NCBI GenBank assembly: GCA_029561955.1
Contig: JAKQWO010000022.1
Span: 1 to 37,533, forward strand
DNA length: 37,533 nt
From: Candidatus Cloacimonadota bacterium
GTDB lineage: Bacteria > Cloacimonadota > Cloacimonadia > Cloacimonadales > Cloacimonadaceae
Reading direction: 5' to 3'
Shown here: positions 54 to 30,468 of the stretch, in pieces
Layout of the letters: every line of letters starts with the position of its first letter
Position numbering within the stretch: the first letter of the stretch is position 1
Program-made: the position numbers and the translations under genes
Notes under the pieces: generated by a model
The model's input: only the letters and a program-made list of their open reading frames with translations
Told to the model about the DNA's origin: nothing
Databases searched by the model: none

Positions 54-138
54 CCTTGCTTACCCGCAGGGAGATGCCGTGGTGATACTCGGGTTTTTCC
101 CGGGTGGCTCCGAGTAATCACCGGGCGGCTAAGCAAGG
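54..138 (-). repeat. 85-bp dispersed palindromic repeat, copy 1
   Basis: The element is bounded by a perfect 9-bp inverted repeat (CCTTGCTTA / TAAGCAAGG). Further in are a 4-bp stem (CCGC/GCGG), a 6-bp stem (GGTGAT/ATCACC) and a central hairpin ACTCGGG-AAAAA-CCCGAGT, described in the orientation of the other copies. The whole is symmetric, 40 + 5 + 40 bases. Two more copies of exactly 85 bp lie at 19310-19394 and 30384-30468 on the opposite strand. This copy has one mismatch in the central hairpin and one in the 6-bp stem. There is no open reading frame or transposase with it. It resembles a REP/MITE-type palindromic element or a structured RNA; I do not recognise a named family. Confidence 0.85.
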
Positions 139-187
139 AAGAGGTGGGTGGTTGGCAACCTTTCGGTGGGGTCAGGGCTGTTACCTA

Positions 188-229
188 CCTTAGAGCCTCC
201 TTTGTTTAATTAAGGTGGAATTAAGGTGG
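188..229 (-). repeat. 42-bp companion repeat, copy 1
   Basis: This stretch is the exact reverse complement of 30281-30322, 42 of 42 bases. In the other orientation it starts with two tandem copies of the 11-mer CCACCTTAATT and ends with GGAGGCTCTAAGG. In both places it lies next to an 85-bp palindrome, 49 bases away here and 61 bases away at the other copy, with the same relative order and orientation. The two pieces therefore belong to one composite element. The 19310 copy of the palindrome lacks it. Confidence 0.8.
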
Positions 230-310
230 TAAGTAGGGGTGGCTTGGGGATATTCGTCTCTGGTGGCTGAGGTTCAGGGATGAAATGAATCTCGTGAGCT
301 TCTTCTTTCC

Positions 311-943
311 TCAAGTTGATTGACGTTGGCTTTGGATAATCCTTCTTAGTTCGTCAAAAAAGGTATGCATTTGAGAATAGGAGTGAATAGGTTCTATCGA
401 ACGGGCTCTTTCGATGGCATCCTCAAGCTTGTCTTGCAGTTTGGCATAGATTTGTTTTGCGCAGTTGAGGCTCTTATTGTATTCTGGCCAGTGCTTTTTA
501 AGCTCAAGTATCACATCATCACAACATTTGAACATTCTGGTTACGAAATCGTAATGGAGCAATAGCCAAAACTCAAAGCAGGGCCTGGTTTCGATGATGA
601 ATAGCCTGCCATTGGCATTTCTCGAATGCAAACAATTGTCCCTTGCCTGCATGTATTCCGATATCTTGCCCTGAGCGTAAATGGTGTCCATGTCCAGAAG
701 ATAAAAAATCAGCGTGTGTTGTTCTTTGTCATTTAACAAGGATTGGATTTCTTTAAAAACCCTTTTGAATTGATCAGCCCGTTTAGGCAAGGATCTGATG
801 CTAAAACTCACAACATCATGTTCAATCTCATCTCCAATCGATTGCATATATTGTTCTTCGGCCTTTCCATCACAGAACACCTTGATCGTATGTCTGTATT
901 TTTTAAGTTTTGCATCCAGTTCTGTTTTACGCCTCTTCGACAT
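311..943 (-). CDS. rloB: RloB-like Toprim-fold protein of an ATPase/RloB cassette
   Basis: A 210-residue protein with the layout of the RloB family: an N-terminal strand followed by the glutamate motif (VFCDGKAEEQY), an acidic motif (LLDMDT), and the family hallmark RPCFEFWLLLHYDF. These fit a Toprim-type metal-dependent nuclease fold; nuclease activity is inferred, not shown. I chose the ATG at 943 (MSKRRKTEL) over the upstream ATG at 985. It lies just before the first predicted strand and leaves only a 17-bp overlap with the ATPase gene, which points to translational coupling. RloB was named from ORFs found inside restriction-modification loci of Campylobacter, and Toprim proteins paired with ABC-type ATPases are a common defence arrangement (compare PARIS and OLD-type systems). 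No methylase or restriction enzyme lies in the window. A role outside defence cannot be excluded. Confidence 0.72.
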   Translation of the reverse strand: MSKRRKTELDAKLKKYRHTIKVFCDGKAEEQYMQSIGDEIEHDVVSFSIRSLPKRADQFKRVFKEIQSLLNDKEQHTLIFYLLDMDTIYAQGKISEYMQARDNCLHSRNANGRLFIIETRPCFEFWLLLHYDFVTRMFKCCDDVILELKKHWPEYNKSLNCAKQIYAKLQDKLEDAIERARSIEPIHSYSQMHTFFDELRRIIQSQRQST

Positions 944-2204
944 CGTCCACCTCAATATGAATGCTGCCAAGAAATGGTTTGCCACCCAAGAAGCCTTTCT
1001 TGTAGAGACTTTCTATAGAGTGCTCTCTTCTTACAGGGTAATTATCCCAGACATTACTGAGCTTAGTGCTGCCGTCTTTTTTGCGTTCTGTGATCCAAAT
1101 GCAGTCTCTGCGGGCAATGTCTTTTTCTCCGAGTAAGCTTATATCGTGTGTGGTGAAGAGCAATTGGCCGGATTTGGAATTGCTTAGGAACATATAGAGA
1201 AAGTGGATTACTAAATCATGGTGGAGGGAGCTGTCGAGCTCATCAATAGAAACAGATACAGGCCTTTTTATCAACTTATTGAGTAGGGCAGCAAAGCCAA
1301 AAAAGCGTTGCGTTCCAGATGACTCATCAAGAAATTCTATCATGAAGTTACCTCCATCAACGCTGTGCTCTATCAATAGGAGTACGAATTTAGGAGTAGG
1401 CTCATCGACTGAGTTGTACGGTTTTCCAGTAGAGGCTTTATATTCTCTCAGAATCTCCTCCGATACTTGTAGTTCAATCAATTTATAATCAGTTATCATC
1501 AGATCAGCAGTTTTCATCAGGGAAAGGGCGAACTCTCGAGACAATTCCTTTTTACTAATTGCATTGACGACAAGATTTTTTAGATCGTGCTGCGGTTCAA
1601 GCAAGCGAAGAAGATAAAATTTAAACCATTCACGCGCTTTTTGTAGAGGTCCCTTGGCTTCAATTGAAGCGATGGTGGTCAAAACAGATTGGTTGCGGAT
1701 GCTGAGCTCCAGTCTGTCCTGAATAGCTTTACTGTAACCTCGATATGTCCACTTGTACTTGTAAGCATCCTTTTTGGGGTCGTAATCGCGTTGGAACACA
1801 TTTGCAACTCTTCCCTTGGGGTAGTAGTCCAACCTCTCAGATAGTATTCTCTCAGTATTTAGCTCCACATTGTATGAATACATGATGTCCTCATGGCAGA
1901 ATTCAATTTCAAAAGTGCTTGGTTTTTCACTGTCCAAGGCAAAGGGAAGGTATTTGATGGGCTCATCTCTAACGCTGATTGGAGACGAAATGAATTCCCT
2001 CAAAAATTCCAGGGCTTTCAAAATATTGGTCTTACCAGAGGCATTGGCACCATAAATCATGGCCATACGCAATATTCTCACCTTGGGCTTGGGAATCTCA
2101 TAGACAAAGTATTCCTCTAAGTGGTTATCCGACGACGCACGAAAGTCCAGGGTGATTTTCTGGCGGATCGAACGAAAGTTTTGGACGCTGAATGTTATAA
2201 TCAT
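927..2204 (-). CDS. AAA/ABC-type ATPase (RloA/AAA_15-like), partner of RloB-like protein
   Basis: A 425-residue ATPase of the RecF/SMC-like ABC class. Visible motifs are an N-terminal IITFSVQNFRSI strand, Walker A GANASGKTN at residues 52-60, an ABC-signature-like SSGTQRFFG, Walker B VSIDELDSSLHH with D-loop, and the H-loop FTTHD. The start is the ATG at 2204 because AAAAGGAG lies 5 bases upstream and the protein then begins MIITFSVQNF; an in-frame ATG at 2258 only adds an 18-residue tail without such a site. Its 3' end overlaps the RloB-like gene by 17 bp. Single ATPases of this type paired with a small Toprim protein usually act as sensors that switch on the nuclease in anti-phage defence; that role is inferred here from family and pairing. 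There is no coiled-coil insertion of SMC/Rad50 length between Walker A and the signature. Confidence 0.78.
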   Translation of the reverse strand: MIITFSVQNFRSIRQKITLDFRASSDNHLEEYFVYEIPKPKVRILRMAMIYGANASGKTNILKALEFLREFISSPISVRDEPIKYLPFALDSEKPSTFEIEFCHEDIMYSYNVELNTERILSERLDYYPKGRVANVFQRDYDPKKDAYKYKWTYRGYSKAIQDRLELSIRNQSVLTTIASIEAKGPLQKAREWFKFYLLRLLEPQHDLKNLVVNAISKKELSREFALSLMKTADLMITDYKLIELQVSEEILREYKASTGKPYNSVDEPTPKFVLLLIEHSVDGGNFMIEFLDESSGTQRFFGFAALLNKLIKRPVSVSIDELDSSLHHDLVIHFLYMFLSNSKSGQLLFTTHDISLLGEKDIARRDCIWITERKKDGSTKLSNVWDNYPVRREHSIESLYKKGFLGGKPFLGSIHIEVDDVEEA

Positions 2205-2690
2205 ATCTTCTCCTTTTGCAGTTTGTCTGCAATAAATGACACGATATTTGAGCCTCACTTTATGTCAAGGATTATTTTGCAGTTTTTCTGTATTATTTGC
2301 CCTGAGATTGCTCGATTTCTGCTTTGGAAAGGCAGTAGCTGTGGTGTAAAAAAAGAAATTCGCTGATGATGGCCTGTCCCAAGTATGTGACTTGTGGAAA
2401 GAAAGAAACAATATTTAATCAATTTCGTATCCTGAGCCTTATCAGACAGTTACGAGATCGGAATTTTGGGATTTTCGTTATGGGGCGAACATCGTCAGAG
2501 TATATTATGGAGGGAAGTTTGCTGTGAGCGAGTGAGAGAAGGTCAAAAACGCACAATATCAGGTCTATAGAATCAGGTATCAAAGTAGGTCATTAAAGCC
2601 GCAGTTTTGCCCTCTATAAAAAAAAAGACTTTACACAAATGGCGCCTTTCAAAGACTTGTCTTTCAAACCGATTTGAGGTATAAAAAGTA
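2205..2690. other. intergenic region between divergent ATPase and bamA genes
   Basis: This 486-base stretch separates the minus-strand ATPase/RloB cassette from plus-strand bamA, so it should hold promoters for both. I see the ATPase ribosome-binding site at 2210-2217, an A-tract near 2618-2628 and GAGG at 2676-2679 ahead of bamA. I found no convincing -35/-10 pair, RNA gene or coding frame. Confidence 0.4.
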
Positions 2691-18077: not shown

Positions 18078-18746
18078 TTAGCTATCTTTGTTTCTAGATT
18101 TCTTAAACAAGATAAACGAATGCAGCGAGGGATAGAGCAGGCAGCCAAAGGCTAGCACGGTAGTGATAGTCTGAAGCAAGCTGGAACCTGTCAAAAAGAG
18201 CCCTTTAATGATCAAGATCAGTCCACCGATCACAAACAGCCAACCGCCCAAACGGTGAGTCTTTTCCCAGATCAGCTCATTGGCGATGGTCCAGGGTGTG
18301 CGGATGCCTATCATGGTGTTCTTGGGCACTTTCGGCAGTATATTGCCCAAAAATACGAAGAGGAAGCCGATGAGCACCAGGATCAGCTTTATGCCCGGCA
18401 CCTCACCCCATTTGGCCACATACAGAGAGTAGAGGCTGAGGGCAGCAAAACAGCTCAAAAGCGTGGTAGTGAGCGGCGGCAAGATATTCTCAAACCGCTC
18501 GGCGTTGCGTTTGTACCAGGGGGAATACCAGTGAAACATAAAGAGCAGCAAAAACATGAACACATTTATTCCTAGACCCCAAACGAGGCCTGCCGTGCGC
18601 CCCGTCCAGCCATCGATCTGGCTCTGGTAGTTCCAGTGGATTGGAACTTGCGCATCTGCGGGCAACTGGGTAGCGAACCAGAGCACTGCAGCCAGGTGCA
18701 AAACCAACACCAACAGTGCCCATTTGTACTTCTTGATTCTAGACAT
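18078..18746 (-). CDS. sdpI: SdpI-family membrane protein
   Basis: A 222-residue membrane protein with about six transmembrane helices. The N-terminal half matches DUF1648 (PIHWNYQSQIDGW); the second half has the SdpI signature GNILPKVPKNTMIGIRTPWT...WEKTHRLGGW. In Bacillus SdpI is an immunity protein against the SdpC toxin and a signal partner of the repressor SdpR. AAAGGAG lies 7 bases before ATG 18746; a second ATG directly upstream at 18749 has only 4 bases. It overlaps the sdpR gene. No SdpC-like toxin is seen, which is usual for such orphan pairs. Confidence 0.88.
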   Translation of the reverse strand: MSRIKKYKWALLVLVLHLAAVLWFATQLPADAQVPIHWNYQSQIDGWTGRTAGLVWGLGINVFMFLLLFMFHWYSPWYKRNAERFENILPPLTTTLLSCFAALSLYSLYVAKWGEVPGIKLILVLIGFLFVFLGNILPKVPKNTMIGIRTPWTIANELIWEKTHRLGGWLFVIGGLILIIKGLFLTGSSLLQTITTVLAFGCLLYPSLHSFILFKKSRNKDS

Positions 18747-19020
18747 CATTCTTCTCCTTTCTTTGGATCAGATCCAGCAACCAACTGCCAAAGTCCTCAA
18801 GCACCGTGGTGTTGAGACTGTAAAAGACGAACTGCTTATCTTTGCGGGTGGAAACGAGGTCTGCGTTGCGCAACACCTTTAGATGCTCGCTGATGGCGGG
18901 CAGGCTGATGGTGAAATGGCCGGCGATCTCGTTCACAGACATCGGTCCATGGCGTCTCAGCAGGGAGAGTATTTCCCGGCGGGTGCGGTCTGCTATGGCC
19001 TTGTAGAATGAATCTGACAT
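18739..19020 (-). CDS. sdpR: SdpR/ArsR-family autorepressor
   Basis: A 93-residue winged-helix repressor. FYKAIADRTRREILSLL, NEIAGHFTISLPAISEHLKVL and FYSLNTTVLEDFGSWLLDLI match the SdpR subgroup, in which the repressor blocks its own operon until SdpI sequesters it at the membrane. There are no cysteine or histidine clusters for metal sensing. AAAGGAG stands ahead of the ATG. Its stop lies inside the start of sdpI, so the pair is one operon. Confidence 0.9.
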   Translation of the reverse strand: MSDSFYKAIADRTRREILSLLRRHGPMSVNEIAGHFTISLPAISEHLKVLRNADLVSTRKDKQFVFYSLNTTVLEDFGSWLLDLIQRKEKNDV

Positions 19021-19082: not shown

Positions 19083-19661
19083 GTGCTTTCTGAACGCATG
19101 GCTTCCTCGCTGCATTCAACATACTATTTAGCAGGTAGTTAAGAAATTCCTATAAGTGGGGATTACCCTGATTCCATGTCCAATCAACTGTCAGAACAGT
19201 TTAAAAAAAAGGCTCAGCTTCGTTTATGATAGGTCAAATGAGGGCCACCCTACCGGTATTACTAAAACCAAATAATGCAGCAGCACCAGAGTGTCCTTAC
19301 CTACTTCTTCCTTGCTTAGCCGCCCGGTGATTACTCGGTGCCACTCGGGAAAAACCCGAGTATCACCACGGCATCACCCTGCGGGTAAGCAAGGAAGGGG
19401 CAGGTGCCAAATCACCCCAGCAAGGTAGAGGCGGTCGCTGAACCACCCAAGCGCTTATCAGTGACGGAGGCAGAAGCCCATCCTTAGGGCAATGTGCCTC
19501 TCGGATTGTCAGGCTTGATCTAGATGTAAAAAACGAGGGCTGTTAGACCTTCTCATCGAACCGTAAAAACAGCGTTTGGTATTTACATGGATTTCTGCTA
19601 CTTTATTGGTAACAGTGTTTACAACATCGAAGACCAACATTACAAATACAAAGAGGAAACT
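19083..19661. other. intergenic region upstream of first M6 peptidase gene
   Basis: This 579-base stretch contains one 85-bp palindrome (listed separately) and otherwise no convincing gene. AGAGGA lies just before the M6 start. The motif GTGTTTAC-A-ACA near 19613 resembles one near 30849 ahead of the second M6 gene. Confidence 0.4.
19310..19394 (+). repeat. 85-bp dispersed palindromic repeat, copy 2
   Basis: Same length and symmetric structure as the other two copies, with perfect 9-bp ends and a perfect ACTCGGG-AAAAA-CCCGAGT centre. It is in the same orientation as the copy at 30384. The 42-bp companion repeat is missing here, though ATAATGCAGC just upstream is also found upstream of copy 3. 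Confidence 0.85.
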
Positions 19662-21920
19662 ATGCGATACATCTCAAGACTGGCAATCTTAAGTCTGCTT
19701 TTGATTGTCACCAACATAATGGCAGCGCCTCACAGCTTTCTGCCGATTGAGGCGATTCAGCCGGATGGAAGCCGGATCAGCATCTATGCCAGCGGCGATG
19801 AATTTCACAACTGGCTGCACGATGAGAACAACTATACTATAGTCAAGGACGAGAGAGGCGCCTACGTCTATGCCATGCAGGAACGTGGCAGCTTGGTTCC
19901 CTCAGATTTACTGGTGGGAAGAGATAGCCCCGACCTGCGCAACATCACAGCAGGGCTTAACCTCAGCCGGGAAGAGATCAAAGTCAAGTATGATCGCTGG
20001 GCAACCATGCGGGATTACTCCAGTAGCCGCGCTCCGCACACCGGTCAATTGAACAATATCGTGATCTTTATCAAGTTTTCTGATAGTCCGGAGTTTAGCA
20101 CTTCCTTCAGCTACTATCAGCAGATCTTCAACGCCGCGGCAGACAACTCAATGAAGCGCTATTTCCAGGCCGCATCCTACAATCAGTTGAGCGTAGATTC
20201 CTTCTTCTATCCTGCGCCCAATGGAAATGTGGTATTAAGCTATACAGACACCTATCCGCGCAGCTACTTCCAGCCCCAAAGTGCCTCTAATCCCAATGGC
20301 TATAATGGAGATATTGAAAGGACTCAACGCGAGCAGCAGATGTTGGCAAGAGCTGTGAATGCTGTCAGCTCGCAGATTCCCGCCACCTTGAATATCGATG
20401 GAGACAATGATGGCTCTGTGGATAACGTTTGCTTCATCATCCAAGGTCAACCCGGTGAATGGGCAGACCTGCTCTGGCCGCATATGTGGGCTCTTTATAC
20501 TGTCGATGCCAGGATAAATGCCAAACTGGTGTGGGATTTCAACTTCCAACTGGAAACCTCGCTGAACAACTCCGGTGCCAGCGTGTTGGCGCATGAGATG
20601 TTCCACAGCTTGGGAGCTCCAGACCTGTATAGATACTATAACGATACCATAGAACCTGTAGGAAGATGGGATTTGATGTCTTACAACTTAAATCCACCTC
20701 AACACATGAGTGCCTGGATGAAGTACAATTACGGAGATTGGATAGCCAACGTGCCCACCATCACCACTTCTGGAACCTATACCCTGCACCCAGTGGCCTC
20801 TTCCTCCACAAACAACATCTACCGCATCAATAGCTGGAAGGATGACGAATACTACGTGTTGGAATACAGAAAGTCGGACGGCACCTACGATGGCAACCTT
20901 CAGGGCACAGGACTGCTGGTCTATAGATTGGACACCAGGGAAGAAGGCAACGCTGAAGGCCCTCCGGATGAACTCTATATCTACAGACCGGGTGGAAGCA
21001 ACACCGTGAATGGAAACCTGAATCAGGCACACTTTTCCCAACAAACTGGACACACTGAGATCAGTGAGGCCACGACGCCAAACGGCTTTTTGGGTGATGG
21101 CTCAGCCGGAGGCTTGAACCTCTTTGACGTAGGCACAGCGGGCGAAACCATCACCTTCAAAGTGAAAGTATCGGACATCCAGCTCACCTATCCGCATGGA
21201 GGCGAGGTCTGGAATAGAAGCGAAAATAAAGAGATCACCTGGAAGAGTAAAGTCACCACAGGAAACGTGAAGCTCGAGTATAGCAGCAATGGAGGCCAAA
21301 GCTGGATTCTGATTGCCTCCAACGTGAGCAATAGCGGTAGCTACACCTGGAACAATGTGCCTGCGATGAACAACAGCTCCAATGTGCATATCCGCGTCAC
21401 TCTCATGGGCACAAACCACTGGGATTCAAACTACTATCCTTTCACGGTTATGGGAATTAGCTCAAACCCTCCCCGTAACCTGAGTGCCACACCCGGCTAC
21501 GCCTCTGTAATCCTCAACTGGCAAGCTCCGTTAGCCGACAACCCTACAGGCTACCGCATCTATCGAAATGGCAGTCTGCTAACCACGGTCACAGCACTCA
21601 CTTACACGGACAACGCCGTAGTGAATGAGACCACTTACTCCTACTATGTGATCGCTGTATATAGCGGCGGTGTTTCTGAGCCTTCCAACACGGTTCAAGC
21701 TACTCCTACCAGCACCGTGATTGCCAGCATTATCAAGATTCCTGGCGGTTTCCGCCTCACCTGGAATGCTGTGCCAAATGCCACAGCCTATGGGGTTTGG
21801 CGCGCTACCGATCCCTACGGAACCTATGTAAGGATAGCTAATAACTTCACTGGCACAATCTACAACGATCTGACAGAACTACCCAAGGCTTTCTACCGCA
21901 TCAAGGCGATCAGAAACTAA
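19662..21920 (+). CDS. secreted M6-family metallopeptidase with Fn3-type tail
   Basis: A 752-residue secreted protein. A signal peptide (ending near NIMAAPH) is followed by an M6-type peptidase region with the zinc motif HEMFH at residues 311-315 and an LNIDGDNDGSVDNV calcium-like loop before it. From about residue 505 comes a Kre9/KNH-like beta domain (QLTYPHGGEVW), from about 600 an Fn3 domain, and from about 683 a C-terminal Fn3-like domain ending DLTELPKAFYRIKAIRN. I chose ATG 19662, directly before the hydrophobic segment and with AGAGGA upstream, over ATG 19587. There is no FlgD-like sorting tail. The C-terminal domain is shared with the C25 protein downstream. The peptidase region is closely similar to the second M6 protein. 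Confidence 0.9.
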   Translation: MRYISRLAILSLLLIVTNIMAAPHSFLPIEAIQPDGSRISIYASGDEFHNWLHDENNYTIVKDERGAYVYAMQERGSLVPSDLLVGRDSPDLRNITAGLNLSREEIKVKYDRWATMRDYSSSRAPHTGQLNNIVIFIKFSDSPEFSTSFSYYQQIFNAAADNSMKRYFQAASYNQLSVDSFFYPAPNGNVVLSYTDTYPRSYFQPQSASNPNGYNGDIERTQREQQMLARAVNAVSSQIPATLNIDGDNDGSVDNVCFIIQGQPGEWADLLWPHMWALYTVDARINAKLVWDFNFQLETSLNNSGASVLAHEMFHSLGAPDLYRYYNDTIEPVGRWDLMSYNLNPPQHMSAWMKYNYGDWIANVPTITTSGTYTLHPVASSSTNNIYRINSWKDDEYYVLEYRKSDGTYDGNLQGTGLLVYRLDTREEGNAEGPPDELYIYRPGGSNTVNGNLNQAHFSQQTGHTEISEATTPNGFLGDGSAGGLNLFDVGTAGETITFKVKVSDIQLTYPHGGEVWNRSENKEITWKSKVTTGNVKLEYSSNGGQSWILIASNVSNSGSYTWNNVPAMNNSSNVHIRVTLMGTNHWDSNYYPFTVMGISSNPPRNLSATPGYASVILNWQAPLADNPTGYRIYRNGSLLTTVTALTYTDNAVVNETTYSYYVIAVYSGGVSEPSNTVQATPTSTVIASIIKIPGGFRLTWNAVPNATAYGVWRATDPYGTYVRIANNFTGTIYNDLTELPKAFYRIKAIRN

Positions 21921-30236: not shown

Positions 30237-30280
30237 ACTTTATCCAGAATAATCCCAGATAATGCAGCGGCTCCTATGAG

Positions 30281-30322
30281 CCACCTTAATTCCACCTTAA
30301 TTAAACAAAGGAGGCTCTAAGG
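30281..30322 (+). repeat. 42-bp companion repeat, copy 2
   Basis: Exact reverse complement of 188-229. It starts with a tandem CCACCTTAATT pair and lies 61 bases upstream of the 85-bp palindrome at 30384. Confidence 0.8.
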
Positions 30323-30383
30323 ATGCGAAACGATATTTACCATGGTGCTGACCGAGAAAAACCGTATTGCTTTCTTACCTCTT

Positions 30384-30468
30384 TCTTGCTTAGCCGCCCG
30401 GTGATTACTCGGAGCCACTCGGGAAAAACCCGAGTATCACCACGGCATCACCCTGCGGGTAAGTAAGG
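30384..30468 (+). repeat. 85-bp dispersed palindromic repeat, copy 3
   Basis: Same symmetric structure as the other copies, with a perfect centre hairpin. Both changes in its outer 9-bp stem (TCTTGCTTA / TAAGTAAGG) leave G-U-compatible pairs in RNA. Same orientation as the copy at 19310, 11,074 bases away. Confidence 0.85.

Follow-up and report, generated by a model that had tools for sequence, protein, structure and literature searches.

The MITE QMITE2 of Coxiella burnetii has a full length of approximately 190 bp and occurs in tens of copies, many of which are truncated, lack terminal inverted repeats (TIRs) and then resemble palindromic REPs; an association with GTAG-type REPs is also on record (PMC10969869). 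The palindromic elements of Rickettsia are likewise multicopy, but are 100–150 bp long and inserted inside genes (PMC10969869). Many intergenic palindromes also characterize the REP/REPIN systems with their RAYT (PMC3733652, PMC3116915). The palindromes of Candidatus Cloacimonadota reported here can be likened by description to QMITE2 with respect to element length (~190 bp), tens of copies, TIR-less REP-like remnants and association with GTAG-type REPs, but differ from it in their host, their IS1380-type TIR, their 5-bp target duplications and a core that is more uniform than the TIRs. While they share the multicopy palindrome with the Rickettsia elements, none of their copies was located inside a gene called by a simple codon-bias gene caller. 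Compared to REP/REPIN, with which they have the many intergenic palindromes in common, the elements are much longer and TIR-bounded with target duplication, and a search of the host for a Y1 transposase gave no match. IS1380-family ISs resemble them in a TIR starting with CCC (plus the 5-bp duplication and a DDE_Tnp_1_4 transposase in the relative L160); however, the palindrome element is non-coding, i.e., the ends are in common and the interior is not. Literature searches on palindromic repeats in Cloacimonadota and on IS1380-related MITEs yielded, by title and abstract, no earlier description of the present family.

The window (the whole stretch of 37,533 nucleotides analysed here) is one contig of the host genome (G000), a Candidatus Cloacimonadota MAG of 2.13 Mb that is 99.5 % complete and fragmented. 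It contains three palindrome copies (H1) of 85 bp each, at 54..138 (copy 1, minus strand), 19310..19394 (copy 2, plus strand) and 30384..30468 (copy 3, plus strand), sharing 96–98 % pairwise identity. Their positions and the 40-5-40 layout with nested stems, both contained in the initial annotation, are confirmed by the sequence. The symmetry of copy 2 is imperfect (73 % identity to its own reverse complement); its fold, calculated as RNA, consists of a single long stem closed by a loop of five bases and has −50.6 kcal/mol, compared to −23.7 ± 3.1 kcal/mol for shuffles (z = −8.8). Since the symmetry of the palindrome runs on for approximately 10 bp beyond the 85-mer on both sides, the natural unit comprises about 105 bp. 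Copy 2 is located between genes for an ArsR-like protein (18739-19020, minus strand) and an M6-like peptidase (19587-21920, plus strand). On the side of copy 1, an RloB-like gene (311-985, minus strand) lies beside a gene for an AAA_21/AbiEii-type ATPase (927-2258, minus strand), together occupying positions 311-2258 and looking like an RloA/RloB-type defence pair.

Far beyond these three copies, a genome-wide search for the 40-bp core (at most 3 mismatches) revealed at least 98 copies in the host genome, with no match for the reversed pattern, demonstrating the multicopy nature of the palindrome. The congener G003 harbours at least 54 copies and the congener G002 two, while the other three congeners contain no copy at the same threshold. 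Among 98 genomes searched, matches were restricted to the host and these two congeners; the matching public records are Candidatus Cloacimonadota MAGs, and the viral contigs searched gave no match. Tandem, convergent and divergent gene pairs are all represented as contexts, divergent pairs accounting for 21 of 69 copies in G000 and 9 of 44 in G003. Orientation within tandem gene pairs is not significantly biased (20 same versus 11 opposite; 13 versus 11). Many intergenic regions are occupied in both G000 and G003, in either orientation and without flank homology (L014/L206, L026/L204, L054/L216, L055/L197 and others), which suggests insertion-tolerant or preferred regions.

Several palindrome copies are flanked by an outward-facing 17-bp TIR (CCCnRATAATGCAnTAG), a pattern matched 71 times in the genome versus 6 times for the reversed control. 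The cut-off (4 of 17 mismatches) was set once the motif was already known from these very copies, with a wrong-orientation control serving as safeguard. By this measure, 25 of the 98 G000 copies with enough flanking sequence possess the TIR on both sides, 36 on one side and 37 on neither (wrong-orientation control: 3/98); the corresponding numbers for the 55 copies of G003 are 3, 9 and 43. In the window, a degenerate TIR (ACCAAATAATGCAGCAG, 19267..19283, plus strand, 2 mismatches) is present to the left of copy 2, and CCCAGATAATGCAGCGG (30254..30270, plus strand, 2 mismatches) forms the left end of the element containing copy 3. Lengths of the two-TIR elements cluster at 189–190 bp and range up to 342 bp.

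Exact 5-bp target duplications (including TTTAT, ATAAA, TTAAA, TTAAT and TTGAA) flank 6 of 28 two-TIR records, equalling 5 distinct cases as L154 repeats L093; random pairing would be expected to yield 0.63 (maximum 3 in 500), and duplications of any other length occur at most once. In the single resolved filled/empty comparison, the insertion at the host locus L002 is bordered by TTTAA on either side, its counterpart L116 of G003 is empty, and the edges of the insertion coincide with degenerate TIRs. Two further sites are occupied in one genome and unoccupied in the other, with edges that are not resolvable: the copy-2 site of the window is without a copy in G003, and an SdpI gene near this site is accompanied by a palindrome in G003 and by none in the window. 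Judging from the TIRs, the duplications of 5 bp and this empty site, the element ends at the TIRs rather than at the palindrome edges.

We therefore regard the palindromes with high confidence as a type-II MITE family: the elements are 189–342 bp long, non-coding and multicopy, their TIRs are common to autonomous ISs, and the target duplication has a fixed length. The MITE-like mobile palindrome, one of several options offered by the initial annotation, is supported by the many intergenic copies, the IS1380-type TIRs, the 5-bp duplications and the filled/empty pair. In the full form of approximately 190 bp, a TIR and a short arm precede the 105-bp imperfect palindrome, followed by a second arm and TIR; longer forms include in addition either another hairpin module (H2), from which a 42-bp repeat derives, or other small hairpins. 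Most likely, an IS1380-family transposase from ISs with the same TIR recognises the ends, and insertion would proceed into intergenic AT-rich targets with duplication of 5 bp. Subsequent decay of the TIRs may then yield copies resembling the bare palindrome. An abundant MITE family together with a likely IS1380-type partner is hereby added for the Cloacimonadota.

The partner is visible in the host at the contig ends: C49 and C51 of G000 terminate within an IS, presenting the TIR CCCAGATAATGCAGTAG followed by the N-terminus of a transposase. A Pfam search for IS1380 over the relatives recovered no full gene in G000, where the partner was seen only via these contig ends. The G000 assembly does not contain an IS1380-type element in complete form, which weighs against the MITE reading. 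A homologue (L160) from a genome of the same family is a complete IS of approximately 1.6 kb with TIRs at both ends and the duplication GTAAA. Its transposase matches DDE_Tnp_1_4 (PF13701) over the cut-off; the best NCBIfam match is NF033539 (IS1380) with 163.8 bits, below the curated cut-off of 180. As the TIR of the palindrome element is that of both the IS start in the host (C49/C51) and L160, these shared ends point to mobilisation of the palindrome element in trans, most likely by an IS1380-family transposase.

The 42-bp repeat, which had been reported as partner of two of the three palindromes, was found to be exact at 188-229 (plus strand) and 30281-30322 (minus strand) and missing beside copy 2. 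The repeat belongs to the module H2, which keeps a fixed spacing from the palindrome: H2 of copy 1 (181..239, plus strand) is 43 bp away from H1, and H2 of copy 3 (30271..30328, minus strand) lies 56 bp upstream of H1. Profile searches with the 42-bp repeat gave 20 hits in the examined stretches of G000 and 22 in those of G003, many being pairs on both strands because the repeat is itself palindromic. All hits are at most 300 bp from a palindrome and nearly always on its left side, commonly at ~40–58 bp; since the stretches had been picked around palindromes, the proximity is partly built in, whereas side and spacing are not. A genome-wide search with a 61-bp query located 7 places, each adjoining a palindrome. 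In L037, TIR, palindrome, H2 and TIR are combined within one element of 285 bp.

Conservation is distributed unevenly along the element. In 5-bp bins, the major-allele frequency is about 0.81–1.0 across the 85-mer and drops to about 0.35–0.45 within some 25–40 bp outside. Simple MITE decay would not lead one to expect TIRs and core to decay differently, a point that counts against the MITE reading. Core identity amounts to 0.898 within G000, 0.892 within G003 and 0.846 between the two. Orthology of copies was accepted if at least one of the two palindrome-adjoining flanks scored higher than a null of mismatched pairs, resulting in 8 pairs that were assembled in two rounds (26 public loci, then 31 further G003 stretches); 7 of them look sound by gap lengths or flank matches and one (L063/L213) is doubtful. 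The mean core identity of these orthologous pairs is 0.837 and thus no higher than that of random cross-species pairs, and most orthologous copies show the state that is the consensus in their respective species, e.g., at position 13. Inversion of the palindrome in place was considered, as several sites filled in both species differ in palindrome orientation, and rejected: all 8 orthologous pairs have the same orientation, and all 8 inverted pairs lack clear flank homology (one-sided in the best of them, p = 0.039), so that separate insertion events into a shared intergenic region are the better reading.

That orthologous cores are no more alike than random pairs suggests either concerted evolution or a species-specific binding factor. 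Provided that the orthologous insertions predate the split of the species, concerted evolution of the core is somewhat favoured, a guarded judgement because the set is small and was picked after viewing the alignments, and because shared MITE arms could aid flank similarity. Within the MITE family, recombination between copies (ectopic gene conversion) would most simply cause the uniformity of the core within a species, to which selection on host-protein binding could contribute. The family makes it possible to study, in countable form, a miniature transposon whose ends decay around a uniform middle, and with two copy-rich congeners, one copy-poor congener and several in which no copy was detected, the homogenisation of small repeats becomes testable by comparison.

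A second backbone was recognised in G003. Its ends (GGCTCATGTTCA...TGAACATGAGCC) enclose 3 of the 55 copies, and one end is present at 4 more (control: 0); the cut-off of 3 of 15 mismatches was again chosen with the motif already known from these copies and safeguarded by the wrong-orientation control. L126 combines these ends with an exact 8-bp duplication (GTATTTTA), and L194 with a duplication matching at 7 of 8 bases. In the window, a degenerate outer inverted repeat of the GGCTCATGTTCA type (GGCTCAGCTTCGTTT, 19211..19225, plus strand, 3 mismatches) is located to the left of copy 2, whose left arm also has the IS1380-type end. The simplest reading would be that one MITE is nested within the other. 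Considering this backbone and the copies without an IS1380-type TIR (37/98 in G000, 43/55 in G003), the palindrome may owe its spread to more than a single route. One may tentatively speculate that the core represents a DNA module, functional or self-homogenising, for which at least two MITE backbones serve as vehicles. Its genome-wide uniformity would then be maintained by concerted evolution, either by ectopic conversion or by a binding protein specific to the species, without dependence on the transposon ends responsible for its initial spread.

A related but unlikely explanation holds that the palindrome is a selected DNA site, carried by MITEs, to which a host factor of the nucleoid, of repair or of replication would bind. 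A core far more uniform than its flanks, many invariant columns in its centre and the species-specific consensus states at orthologous sites agree with such a site, and the nucleoid or recombination role listed in the initial annotation would fit the uniformity within species. However, gene conversion alone accounts for this uniformity, no co-distributed protein was identified, and with only 2 copies in G002 and none in three congeners the palindrome is not essential in the genus.

It is highly improbable that the 85–105-bp palindrome is itself the mobile unit, REP/REPIN-like and moved by a RAYT-type Y1 transposase, with the TIR arms being incidental. The sharp fall of conservation ~10 bp outside the 85-mer, the many copies without TIRs and the occurrence of the core in two TIR backbones would be compatible with this proposal. 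Yet, the unit is part of a longer TIR-bounded element, is far longer than a REP of 20–40 bp with GTAG or CGTC tag, and TIRs, 5-bp duplications and empty site place the ends elsewhere. Moreover, no match to the Y1 transposase family PF01797 at E ≤ 1e-5 was obtained in the 99.5 % complete but fragmented G000; G002 and G003 gave weak matches, and G004, a genome without palindrome copies, gave the strongest one. As a separate observation, REP-like hairpins tagged with GTAG/GTAC start at most 12 bp left of the palindrome in 13 of 91 G000 copies (e.g., L015, L016, L019, L028), with a control rate of ~0.5 % that refers to a window of 25 bp. The outer arm of the palindrome seems to act as a docking place for REP-type repeats, even though the host search for a Y1 transposase had no hit.

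A hint of selection on RNA structure had been seen in the two outer-stem changes of copy 3. While both do keep G-U pairing, pairing among 146 distinct copies is no better than in 3'-shuffled controls: double-changed pairs number 3 (shuffle mean 2.8) and such cells 6 (shuffle mean 5.2), low divergence among the copies limiting the power of this test. Common variants at columns 13, 34 and 36 break stem pairs without compensation. The alternative pairing of GGTGATTACTCGG with CCGAGTATCACC exists, but is broken at 19:56 in 69 and at 26:50 in 42 of the 146 copies. A regulatory cassette that spread as structured RNA, be it a riboregulator, an mRNA stabiliser, a terminator or an attenuator, is therefore a highly improbable explanation, since, despite a very stable hairpin and intergenic copies, covariation stays at shuffle level, neither strand nor position is significantly biased, divergent gene pairs are well represented and the window has no Rfam match.

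IS1380-type ends were also observed on elements other than the palindromes. The host contigs C1, C8 and C15 (L135, L136, L137) end in one common sequence that opens with an IS1380-type TIR (CCCAAATAATGCAGTAGGATTTCC...), probably representing a further multicopy IS or MITE at which the assembly was interrupted. In G028, a genome of a different genus, several elements of ~345 bp (L163, L167, L169) carry the same TIR at both ends together with a remnant of the transposase N-terminus, and constitute a type-I MITE belonging to this IS group.
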